NCBI RefSeq assembly: GCF_028736925.1
Contig: NZ_JAQZAT010000001.1
Location: forward strand, 186,001-250,000
DNA length: 64,000 bases
Source of the DNA: Flavivirga sp. 57AJ16
GTDB taxonomy: Bacteria > Bacteroidota > Bacteroidia > Flavobacteriales > Flavobacteriaceae
Reading direction: 5' to 3'
Made by a program: the position numbers and the translations under genes. The notes below the pieces were generated by a model. That model saw only the letters and a program-made list of their open reading frames with translations, had not been told where the DNA came from and ran no database searches. Shown piece by piece: positions 24,104 to 63,629 of the stretch. Position 1 is the stretch's first letter. Every line of letters starts with the position of its first letter.

Positions 24104-24270
24104 ACTGAATGTCCATAATTTGTCATAAACCTAAAAATATATTGTTTTTGTCATCCCGAGGCAACGAGGGATCTCCATTGATTATCAACAGATTCCCTGC
24201 CTGCCGGCAGGCAGGTTCACTTCGTTCTGAATGACAAAAATATCATTATGCATGATTACGGACATTCAGT
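24104..24270. repeat. Inverted-terminal repeat element after the YHS gene
   Basis: Ends ACTGAATGTCCATAAT and, inverted, ACTGAATGTCCGTAAT enclose about 130 bases with a GAGGCAACGAGGGATCTCC-type hairpin and the palindrome CCTGCCTGCCGGCAGGCAGG. It begins 1-2 bases after the YHS stop codon. No frame is preserved inside it. Confidence 0.65.
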
Positions 24271-31263: not shown

Positions 31264-31673
31264 GCAGCTACGGTGTACCTACATCTTTTTCGGTATACAA
31301 GCTAAAAGTTTTTTTACTTACTTTTCTTTGCTCGTCCAAAGAAAAGTAACAAAAGAAAAGACGCCCTTTCGAGAGGGATTTCTTCTCACGCTCTCGCTTG
31401 AGAAGAACCGAGTCCAAAACTTCGCGTCGCCCCACCTCCATGGCCAACGCCAATGCTCCTGTTCCTCGAAGCTTTTGTACCCTATCCTTCCGAAAGGTCG
31501 GGGACAGCCCTATGGCCTTTTCTCAACAACTAGCAGAGAGACTCGACCGTTCTATAAAAAGCGACCTCGGAGGTTGGCATAGCTGCCTATCTAGGGAGCA
31601 AGGGGTATAGGGCGAGTTCTTTTTATCTGCGGCTGTGACAAAAGATCATGATTTGTGGGTACACCGTAGCTGC
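31264..31673. repeat. Terminal-inverted-repeat element, family B, copy 1 (about 410 bases)
   Basis: The ends are 20-base inverted repeats, GCAGCTACGGTGTACCTACA on the left and the inverse with one mismatch (TGTGGGTACACCGTAGCTGC) on the right. Inside lies a stretch shared with copy 2 at 36469-36935, including TCGTCCAAAGAAAAGTAACA, CTTCGCGTCGCCCCACC and CCGAAAGGTCGGGGACAGC. Open frames in it look spurious because frames differ between copies. The GC content is higher than in neighbouring genes. It fills most of the gap between hemD and pckA. Confidence 0.85.
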
Positions 31674-31715
31674 CTGCCGGCAGGCCCAAGGCAAGCCTCG
31701 GATAATTCTTTTATA

Positions 31716-60026: not shown

Positions 60027-63000
60027 TTAACCTACAATGTTGACAATTTTACCTGGAACGACAATTACTTTTTTAGGTTCGCGTCCCTGTAATTGTTCTT
60101 TTGTTTTTTCGTTTTCTAAAACTGTTTTTTCTATATCGTCTTTACTCATATCCAATGGCAACTCGAGTGTAAAACGCATTTTTCCATTAAATGAGATCGG
60201 ATAATTTTTACTGCTTTCTACTAAATGACTGGCGTCAAATTTCGGAAAGTCTGCCGTTGAAATGGATGTTTCATGCCCTAACTTGTTCCATAACTCCTCA
60301 GCAATATGTGGAGCGTAAGGTGATATTAAAATCAACAACGGTTCTAGTATTTCTTTTGAAATACATTTTTGTGCTGTTAACTCGTTTACGGCGATCATAA
60401 AAGTAGACACCGAGGTATTAAACGAGAAGTTCTCTATATCTTCTTCTACTTTCTTAATTGTTTTGTGGAGGGTTTTGAGAGCTTCCCTGGAAGCCTCCCC
60501 TAGCCCCTCCGAAGGAGGGGAACTTGTAACGTAAAAAGCTCCGTTATCTCCCTGATGGTATAGTTTCCAAAGCTTTTTAAGGAAGTTGTGTACCCCTGTA
60601 ATCCCAGCAGTATTCCAAGGTTTGTATTGTTCTAAAGGTCCTAAGAACATTTCGTATAGGCGAAGACTGTCTGCACCGTATTGTTCGCAAATGTTATCTG
60701 GATTAACGACATTAAACCAACGTTTTGACATTTTCTCTACTTCTCTGCCAACGATGTAATGCCCTGCTTCCAAAATAAATTCAGCATCATTGAATTGCGG
60801 TTGCCATTTTTTTAAGGCTTCAATATTAATTTCATCTGAGGCATTAACCATATTAACATCCACTCGAATTTCTTCAACATCATAACTGTCTTTTAATCCT
60901 TTAGAAACATATTTATTAGTTCCTGAAATACGATATACTATAGCACTAGTCCCCAAAATCATGCCTTGATTAATCAGTTTTTTTGCAAACTCATCATAAG
61001 GTACAAACCCTTTATCGAACATAAACTTTTGCCAAAAACGTGCGTATAACAAATGCCCCGTAGCATGCTCGCTTCCGCCTATATATAAATCTACTTGTTG
61101 CCAATAATCAATAGCATCTTTAGAGAAAATCGCATCTTCGTTATGTGGGTCCATATAACGATTAAAATACTGCGAACTTCCTGCCCAGCCTGGCATGGTG
61201 TTCAACTCTAAAGCCCCTCCTAGCCTCCCCAAAGGGGAGGAATTCTCAAATTCCTCTTTAGAAACTATTTCGGCTTTATCTCCATACTGTAACCAATGCC
61301 ACTTTTTAGCATTTCCCAGAGGAGGCTCACCTGTTTCAGTTGGCAAGTATTTATCTACTTCAGGTAGCTCTAGTGGCAAAAACTTCTCATCAATCATTTG
61401 TGGCATGCCATTATCATCATAGTAAACCGGGAATGGTTCTCCCCAATAACGCTGTCTACTAAAGACGGCATCACGCAACCTGTAATTGGTTTTGCCTTCA
61501 CCTTGCCCTAATTGCTCCAACTCATAAATAACGCGCTTAGTAGCTTTTTTATAGTCCATGCCGTTTAAGAAATCACTATTGGCTATAACGGTTTTTTCTT
61601 TATCGGCAAACGCTTCTTCAGAAATGTCTACACCTTCAAAAATATTAGGAATCGGAATATTAAAATGTTTTGCAAAATCATAATCACGTTGATCGCCACA
61701 AGGTACCGACATCACCGCTCCCGTACCATAACCAGCCAATACATAATCGCCAATCCAAATAGGAATAGGGGCTTTTGTAAAAGGATGTTCAGCATAAGCA
61801 CCTGTAAATACGCCCGAAATGGTTTTTACATCTGCCATTCTATCACGTTCACTACGCTTTGCTGTAGCTAGGATATAAGCATCAACGGCTTCCCTTTGTT
61901 CCGGGGTTGTTATCTGCGGTACCAGTTCGTGCTCTGGAGCCAGGGTCATGAACGAAACCCCGAAAATGGTATCGGGTCTTGTTGTGAAAACGGAGATCCC
62001 CCTAACCCCCGAAAGGGGAACTTGCATCCCCCTAACCCCCGAAGGGGGAACTTGCTCACTCTGCTGTAATTTGCTCGCCTCTAAATCACTCTGAATTGAT
62101 TCTCTTTCTGCTAATTCCTTTTTTATATTTTCTAAAACACTTTCAATATTTCCCAAAACTTCTTCGTTTGTAAAACGGATAACTTTGTAGTAGTCATTTT
62201 CAAGAATTTCTGTGCGTTTTGCATCTTCTTCTATTTGGGATTCATGGATTTTTCCATCAACTTCAATAATTAATCGCTTTTTTAAACATACAAAGTCAAC
62301 AATATAGTCCCCTATTAAATGCTGTTGTCTAAATTTTGCTCCTAGATTTTTGTTTCTAAGCTGCTCCCATAATACTGCTTCCGCCTGAGTTGGATTAGCA
62401 CGCATCTCTTTAGCTCGTTCCAATAATAAGTGTGAATTATTTCCCCCTGTCATATACCCCGCACGAGTATGCGTACCAGCTTTCTCTTCCCCTTGGGAGA
62501 AGGGTAGGATGGGGAACTCTACTTGGGCCCCAACCGACTTTCCAATCCAATTACGTTGGCTTTCTTTTAAAGAATCTGTCCAATCAATAGTATCCAATCC
62601 TTGAAGCAAGCGTTCTGCATAGGCAGAAATACGCATACTCCATTGGGTCATTTTTTTACGAATTACAGGATGCCCGCCACGTTCGGACACACCATTTACA
62701 ATTTCGTCGTTTGCTAAAACAGTGCCTAATGCAGGACACCAGTTTACTTCTGTTTCCGCTAGGTATGTTAATCTATATTGTAATAATATTGTTTGTTGTT
62801 TTTCAGGTGAAAACCCTTGCCATTCATCTGCAGAAAACAGTTCGACACCATCATCGCAAACTGCATTCACCTTTGTATTTCCTTCTGTTTCGAAAATGCT
62901 TACTAAACCTGAAATATCTTCAGCTTTGTTAGTCTCATTATTATACCAGGATTCGAACAATTGAATAAAAATCCATTGTGTCCATTTGTAATAACTCGGA

Positions 63001-63383
63001 TCTGATGTTCTAACCTCTCGGGACCAATCGAACGAAAAACCTATTTGGTCTAACTGTCTACGATATGTTTTTATATTCTCAGCAGTTGTTACAGCAGGAT
63101 GCTGTCCTGTTTGAATGGCATATTGTTCTGCTGGCAAACCAAAACTATCATACCCTTGTGGATGCAGTACATTGAAGCCTTTATGACGTTTATAGCGTGC
63201 GTAAATATCTGAAGCAATATACCCTAGTGGATGTCCAACATGCAACCCAGCACCACTTGGGTAAGGAAACATATCTAACACATAATATTTTGGTTTTTCG
63301 CTATTATTAACAGCTTTAAACGTTTGGTTCTCTGCCCAGTACTTTTGCCATTTGGCTTCAATCTCGTTGAAATTGTATTTCAT
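60027..63383 (-). CDS. leuS: Leucyl-tRNA synthetase with an in-frame DUF559 domain insertion
   Basis: The 1118-residue product is much longer than most Bacteroidota LeuRS, about 930-950 residues. The core is complete: HIGH-type [10 protein letters not shown], the CP1 editing domain ([14 protein letters not shown]), [12 protein letters not shown], and a KMSKS-type motif as KMSKRW. An insert of about 170 residues at the start of the editing domain (about residues 291-461) contains a DUF559 domain. I chose ATG 63383 ([12 protein letters not shown]); an ATG-like start at 63407 would overlap the promoter. Short GC-rich palindromes also sit in frame at two other places. Confidence 0.93.
60491..60531. 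repeat. GC-rich palindrome in frame within leuS (site 1)
   Basis: AGCCTCCCCTAGCCCCTCC is followed by GAAGGAGGGG, giving a hairpin in otherwise AT-rich DNA. On the minus strand it adds [14 protein letters not shown] to the protein in the anticodon-binding domain, where relatives have a short connecting stretch. It keeps the frame. Confidence 0.65.
61212..61240. repeat. GC-rich palindrome in frame within leuS (site 2)
   Basis: CCCCTCCTAGCCTCCCC is followed by AAAGGGGAGG, a hairpin that reads [19 protein letters not shown] on the minus strand. It sits just before the conserved [12 protein letters not shown] motif. The repeat resembles site 1 and the intergenic 14937 hairpin. Confidence 0.65.
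61998..62513 (-). mobile_element. Putative in-frame DUF559 element with GC-rich flanks
   Basis: About 515 bases keep the leuS frame and encode a complete DUF559 domain: [44 protein letters not shown] and [14 protein letters not shown], the Vsr-like PD-(D/E)XK core. The right flank on the + strand (about 62490-62513) has a GC-rich inverted pair (CCCCTTGGGAGAAGGG), and the left flank holds two tandem 30-base copies with CCCCCTAACCCCCGAA. The insert cuts the editing domain between EFPI and ISVFTTRPD. It may be an intragenic mobile element; a fixed domain gain is the alternative. Confidence 0.6.
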
Positions 63384-63448: not shown

Positions 63449-63629
63449 GAAGTGGTTTAAATTTTTTTCAATTGGCTGCAACCTGCCGGCAGGCAGGCAG
63501 GAACGCTCCTTTTCATCCTTTTTTCGTCTTTTTATTACTTCGTAACGCTGCTATGAAGCGCAAAAAAGGCTTCAAAATGAATAAAAATTAGCTATTTTTC
63601 GCTTCAATCAAAAAAGTTCAGACCACTTC
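63449..63629. repeat. Inverted repeat region between leuS and the EamA gene
   Basis: GAAGTGGTTTAAA at the left and its near-inverse TTCAGACCACTTC at the right enclose about 150 bases with the GC-rich CCTGCCGGCAGGCAGG palindrome. GAAGTGGTTTAAA recurs at 29631-29643 and, as GAAGCGGTTTAAACCACTTC, at 24403. The stretch between leuS and the EamA gene shows no coding frame. Confidence 0.5.

Follow-up and report, generated by a model that had tools for sequence, protein, structure and literature searches.

The window analysed here, 64,000 nucleotides of a contig from Flavivirga sp. 57AJ16, carries a leucyl-tRNA synthetase gene (leuS; 60027..63383, minus strand; 1118 amino acids plus stop) whose frame contains no internal stop. 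Its product is assigned to leuS_bact by NCBIfam, with a score of 891.7 against a cut-off of 548.4, and Pfam places LeuRS parts on either side of a DUF559 domain (PF04480; E = 1.7e-35, 121.6 bits against a cut-off of 20.6) at residues 322-424 (62112..62420, minus). This domain forms the core of an in-frame insert, delimited by LeuRS alignment and an AF2 model (61996..62516, minus), which consists of a 5' hairpin and linker, the DUF559 domain and 3' hairpin repeats. The insert lies in the editing domain, after a strand ending in VEF and just ahead of the TTRPDT editing motif, and adds ~164 residues relative to the shortest congeneric LeuRS that lacks it (G002). A first-pass annotation of the locus had described a leuS frame that stays open through extra DUF559-coding DNA, with normal LeuRS sequence on both sides; both points hold, the domain is intact, and the observation is confirmed. 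LeuRS is essential in other organisms. If it is essential here too, the enzyme must work with its insert in place, since the genome contains a single leuS match at E <= 1e-50 and that match scores well above the NCBIfam cut-off.

Repeats at both flanks had also been proposed, a claim that stands for one side and needs qualification for the other. At the 3' end, two copies of a 30-bp tandem duplication (61996..62025 and 62026..62055, minus) are 97% identical, and the CCCCTAACCCCCNAANGGGG repeat occurs twice in the window versus never in 100 shuffles. The hairpin at the 5' end (62480..62516, minus) is C-rich, encodes 13 residues and is imperfect: a search of 61700-62900 found no inverted repeat of at least 12, and the inverted match between the two flanks is weak (score 14 versus 9 when shuffled), so the terminal inverted repeats described below are read from other copies. 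C-rich hairpins of the insert-flank type occur at four positions in the window, all within leuS. Alignment identified two solo repeat units, both in frame and on the minus strand, at 60492..60527 and at 61212..61244; the latter immediately precedes TMPGWAGSS, a position (the leuS2 site) that holds a full DUF559 insert in other families. Another palindromic repeat family, resembling GCCTGCCGGCAGGC, is present in the window at 24196-24215, 31672-31685 and 63482-63497, outside frames of at least 150 codons.

The inserted domain is a predicted PD-(D/E)XK nuclease similar to Vsr and I-Bth0305I, an assignment based on its modelled fold and its conserved D...E-x-D...H residues. The catalytic-type aspartate of the DF motif (residue 363; 62295..62297, minus) is invariant in 61 aligned inserts and in all 182 embedded copies, and the E, D and H of EVDGKIH (residues 374-380; 62244..62264, minus), corresponding to the E-x-D...H of the core, are invariant in the 61 aligned inserts. 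The full D, E, D, H set is retained in 181 of the 182 embedded copies. A profile search of the PDB with the insert domain matched 3hrl (6e-34) and 3r3p, annotated as a 'mobile intron protein' (8e-7). Modelled alone from 61 rows, the domain reached a pLDDT of 88.5, and a Foldseek search with this model returned 3hrl (3.0e-7), 3r3p, which is I-Bth0305I (9.7e-5), and Vsr 1cw0 (0.032). Tetrahymena and Toxoplasma mitochondrial ribosome proteins also appear among the fold matches of the model. A Caulobacter DUF559 protein is reported to be Vsr-like and tied to DNA damage (PMC12907096).

In an AF2 model of the whole LeuRS, built with 28 aligned LeuRS sequences (overall pLDDT 74, pTM 0.60), DUF559 is predicted to fold as a domain of its own, connected to the flanking strands (282-293 and 462-467) by low-confidence linkers at residues 296-316 and 429-460. 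The model fits the earlier suggestion that the protein accommodates the insert in a surface loop of CP1.

The insert is polymorphic within the genus. Among 12 congeneric genomes (G000-G011), in-frame DUF559 domains occur in leuS in six, in recG in four and in ileS in three, and the genome of Flavivirga sp. 57AJ16 itself carries a second copy, in recG (102.8 bits against a Pfam cut-off of 20.6). The comparison of related LeuRS proteins that had been suggested for this locus shows that five further congeneric genomes carry the leuS insert where this one does; the remaining six of the 12 lack the domain, so it is not fixed, and other genes hold DUF559 with similar hairpin repeats. Both results support the original proposal of a frame-preserving mobile insertion. 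What that proposal did not foresee is the scale of the phenomenon – at least 21 host families, described below – and the inverted arrangement of the repeats.

At leuS sites without DUF559, the loop is filled by other short sequences. In G009 (C3:262976) and G010 (C2:506785) it contains an almost perfect palindrome of ~33 bp, and in G011 a diverged version of this palindrome with both arms altered. We considered whether the palindrome is a dispersed repeat and rejected this, as it occurs in one place only at up to 3 mismatches. The loop of G005 (C1:3554550-3554572) contains a CACCCTGA-type repeat; a dispersed repeat, CACCCTGAGCGNAGTCGAAGGGT, has 24 matches in G005 (up to 3 mismatches), one of them in the leuS loop, and also occurs in G000, G008 and G011. 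Given that the G005 loop holds another repeat, the recurrence of DUF559 at the same sites may reflect the tolerance of those loops alone. A further length-variable stretch is present in leuS of G007, G010 and G011, near residues 821-832 of the window protein.

The recG site shows a wider range of states in the same 12 genomes: four are occupied, one (G011) has an internal deletion that kept both hairpin ends, four retain a 5'-end remnant (G001, G003, G007 and the more diverged G008) and three are clean (G002, G006, G010). Together these look like the full cycle of an element. No target-site duplication was recognised in this 12-genome comparison of the recG site.

DUF559 is common beyond the genus, with matches in 110 of 299 genomes of the family (E <= 1e-10) and 155 of 395 genomes of the class (E <= 1e-12). 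Open frames of at least 300 codons hold 81 of the best 150 matches listed for the 395 class genomes, a figure that may take in natural fusions such as restriction enzymes. Among the 80 loci most like the inserts, 72 are embedded and eight are stand-alone; because the selection criterion was similarity to the inserts rather than the frame, the proportion is not a rate for DUF559 as a whole. HMM searches identified at least 21 host families with in-frame DUF559, 16 of which have host matches on both sides: LeuRS, RecG, MetH, IleRS, AcsA, RecJ, a RecB-like helicase, ValRS, TsaD, IcmF, a TPR-SpoIIE-type phosphatase, class III CoA-transferase, MazG, PurL, DegT-type aminotransferases and SpoIID. In five others (HemD, HisA/HisF-type, pseudouridine synthase, HisD and M23 peptidase) the domain is at an end or the host match is one-sided. 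In valS (L269, identified by HMM) the insert sits directly ahead of the TTRP motif, as in leuS. More than one insertion site is used in leuS, metH and recG, and single genes can carry two inserts (metH of L062, L231 and L252; leuS of L233). In nine copies DUF559 precedes hemD; these form their own clade in the 143-row tree described below and were left out of the flank test, the catalytic-residue count, the 211-row tree and the tree with added stand-alone copies.

We then asked how the two ends of each element are related. Across 182 distinct embedded copies (frames of at least 250 codons, one copy dropped for a short flank; 'other' hosts are included, in some of which the domain is terminal), the mean flank-to-flank match was 17.8 in inverted orientation, 13.6 in direct orientation and 9.3 when shuffled, with inverted exceeding direct in 141 copies and direct exceeding inverted in 29. 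Matches to the flank of another locus averaged 11.7 in a run of 197 copies that included duplicates and hemD. The strongest cases (L152, L159, L236 and L129) have 30-42 bp of near-identity with an internal hairpin. For 28 stand-alone DUF559 copies, the direct match was the better one (35.6 versus 20.7 inverted). We found no support for selection keeping the terminal repeats free of stops in every frame: among 79 TIRs, the open fractions were 0.69 (5' sense) and 0.63 (3' sense) versus 0.61 in composition shuffles. In G004, the members of a tandem pair of near-identical stand-alone DUF559 genes (L005/L014; C24:87824-88706) each have the same elaborate hairpin flanks, CTCCTTCCCTT...AGGGAAGGTGG...GACGGAAGGGTT; this is a related but separate repeat-nuclease unit.

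Repeat units also occur without the nuclease. A pattern for one subtype (CCCCTARCC-type) has 10 hits in the genome, eight clear and two doubtful; the clear copies comprise two in leuS, one each in frame in an ileS-type gene, ruvC and a DUF5675 gene, and three outside frames of more than 110 codons. This undercounts the repeat, as the pattern misses the two solo units in leuS. The ileS-type gene (L273, G000:C1:387795) carries a two-ended in-frame remnant without DUF559 ahead of TTTPWTLPSN; Pfam identifies it as a class I synthetase, which we take to be ileS from its TTTPWT motif. The other in-frame units lie at the C-termini of ruvC (L274, C2:84286) and of the DUF5675 gene (L278, C15:44258), a gene for which an initial identification as rnpA was rejected.

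Median insert dN/dS values were 0.25 for leuS (126 pairs with dS < 1.5), 0.12 for recG (27 pairs) and 0.10 for ileS (3 pairs), indicating that the inserts are under purifying selection. Purifying selection on a domain that keeps its active site, with scars and empty sites nearby, fits an element that needs its activity to persist.

Phylogenies of the domain largely separate the embedded copies from stand-alone DUF559, with the caution that 130 columns are few for the number of rows in these trees. In a careful 143-row tree, most inserts fall in one 104-row clade (support 99/90) that contains no stand-alone copy of that sample, which included none from the class survey. Site labels are strongly clustered on this tree (34 changes versus 97.6 when shuffled), and its starred or well-supported branches require at least four changes for leuS1 and at least three each for leuS2, ileS1 and acs. 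When 21 rows from 20 stand-alone loci were added, the separation held (16 changes versus 47.8 shuffled). A larger, quick tree of 211 rows gave similar clustering (43 changes versus 136.3) and forced three arrivals for ileS1, two each for leuS1, metH1 and metH2, and one for the others (leuS2, acs and recG1 among them); some Bacteroidales stand-alone copies sit within its insert clade. Switches of host gene are visible in the insert trees, and in the 211-row tree the inserts of the RecB-like gene in Flavobacterium fall within the leuS1 clade, grouped with a leuS insert from that genus. Ectopic spread is likewise indicated by one metH that carries closely similar copies at two sites.

At one site, that of leuS, the insert has moved between species. 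The leuS insert of G004 groups with those of G000 and G006, and its host gene does not. AU tests rejected swapping the insert and host topologies in both directions (p = 0.0012 for the insert, 0.0057 for the host), though these p values are optimistic because the groups were chosen after the trees had been seen. Between G004 and G006, insert pS is 0.04-0.15 in four of five windows and 0.37 in the first, and host windows range from 0.31 to 0.86; no co-conversion tract of low divergence was found beside the insert in this pair. The same comparison of topologies was not significant for recG (AU p = 0.144). In several other leuS pairs insert dS is like host dS, implying that movement of the insert is occasional.

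Sequence comparison shows that copies of the element occupy loops of many conserved Bacteroidota genes, in frame and intact, that relatives lack it or bear scars where others carry it, and that it has passed between species at leuS and reached further sites and genes. We consider it probable that the leuS insert is a copy of a one-gene selfish element that is never spliced out, comprising a DUF559 nuclease gene between C-rich inverted hairpin repeats. Translation would run straight through the insert, which the host protein would retain as an additional domain held by flexible linkers; insertions would therefore persist only where they preserve the frame and the loop is tolerant. The nuclease may nick or cut the empty allele or the hairpin ends, after which repair would copy the element in, as in homing, with jumps to new sites being rarer. 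Decay by in-frame deletion would leave hairpin scars and solo repeats. A broader proposal, to which we give slightly less than an even chance, is that these copies represent a class of mobile element in its own right, in which a homing nuclease is exonic, remains unspliced and brings its own terminal hairpins. Such an element would spread by becoming a permanent extra domain of essential proteins, find its niche in loops next to conserved motifs and be the source of solo in-frame repeats in Bacteroidota genes.

The most serious competing account, which we nevertheless regard as unlikely, treats DUF559 as passive cargo and the hairpins as REP- or MITE-like units moved by another transposase (RAYT, TIRYT or one not yet known). 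Solo units in leuS, the ileS-type gene, ruvC and the DUF5675 gene and outside long frames would be expected of such units, and REPs have been described beside RAYT genes and in repair genes (PMC3733652). The genome has seven Y1_Tnp matches, and one of these loci, L190 (G000:C4:132922), has a C-rich hairpin (positions 7-47) that resembles the 5' flank in leuS and is separated from a weak Y1-transposase match by about 1.4 kb. However, the other six loci have no such hairpin within flanks of about 1.5 kb, and none of the 10 CCCCTARCC-type hits, a pattern that represents one subtype only, is near any of the seven. A RAYT as mobiliser accordingly found no clear support. Moreover, nearly all copies retain the DUF559 active site, which is unexpected for passive cargo.

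Purifying selection and a conserved active site would equally suit a nuclease domain retained for its benefit to LeuRS, RecG and other hosts, as would the wide occurrence of the leuS insert in the family. We judge this improbable in view of the unrelated hosts, which extend from tRNA synthetases to purL and acs, the patchy presence, with congeners lacking the insert and deletion scars, and the horizontal movement. Still less probable is a single ancient insertion per gene followed by vertical inheritance and many losses. The strong clustering of site labels on both trees, the leuS pairs in which insert and host dS agree and the few separate arrivals forced in the 211-row quick tree favour it, but the AU tests reject the host grouping for the leuS insert (with groups chosen post hoc) and the careful tree forces the repeated changes listed above for leuS1, leuS2, ileS1 and acs. 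For leuS in this genus, the sequence data contradict a vertical-only reading. Many of the genomes are drafts, which could raise the question of an assembly or binning artefact, but we give this almost no credence: many assemblies made independently, the single-contig G001 and G005 and named isolates among them, share the insert and its position.

The usual explanation for nuclease elements within genes is a splicing device – an intron or an intein – that spares the host. Here no such device was found, and the nuclease gene appears to reside inside LeuRS, IleRS, ValRS, RecG, MetH and other proteins in many sampled genomes of the class. If the selfish element that we favour homes, homing genes would have a third means of occupying an essential gene; if it transposes, a REP-like repeat family would gain DUF559 as a candidate enzyme. 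Either way, it would account for an unexplained nuclease domain in housekeeping proteins of many Bacteroidota, reveal natural domain-insertion sites in tRNA synthetases and allow the persistence of selfish DNA in essential proteins to be tested directly. In the titles and abstract openings of the open-access papers listed by our searches, neither DUF559 as an in-frame insert nor such inserts in tRNA synthetases are described.

Several characterized systems share features with the DUF559 element. The first-pass annotation had likened the insert to an intein or to a homing nuclease without splicing. The element does resemble inteins with homing endonucleases in placing a nuclease in frame next to conserved motifs of essential proteins, but a Pfam scan (E <= 0.001) found no intein (Hint-type) splicing domain in LeuRS or RecG; self-splicing is thus not expected and the homing half of the comparison is the better analogy; 3hrl and a homing endonuclease are the closest characterised folds. 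I-Bth0305I (PDB 3R3P) and the Vsr-like EDxHD group share the predicted catalytic fold and sequence profile, and the leuS insert resembles homing elements in its presence or absence at one site and its host-incongruent, non-vertical spread (for groups chosen post hoc), though co-conversion of host flanks was not seen in the G004-G006 leuS pair. I-Bth0305I differs in coming from a mobile intron, whereas the DUF559 insert, with no splicing device found, would stay in the host protein.

Rickettsia palindromic elements are selfish, palindrome-based DNA of about 150 bp found in frame in unrelated genes as translational fusions (PMC10969869). The DUF559 element is likewise an in-frame palindromic insert in unrelated genes. 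It differs in carrying a nuclease domain of ~110 amino acids between inverted hairpins; in the portion of the Rickettsia report available to us, no enzyme of their own is described for those elements (PMC10969869).

REPtrons and TIRtrons comprise a RAYT or TIRYT gene between hairpin or inverted repeats, accompanied by solo repeats (PMC3733652). Inverted terminal hairpins around a single gene are also a feature of the DUF559 element, though weak in the window copy. Its enzyme, however, is a predicted PD-(D/E)XK-type nuclease rather than an HUH tyrosine transposase, and a Pfam scan found no Y1_Tnp domain in the LeuRS or RecG product. The DUF559 element also differs in where it resides, as the copies chosen for their likeness to the inserts lie mostly inside genes (72 of 80 loci).
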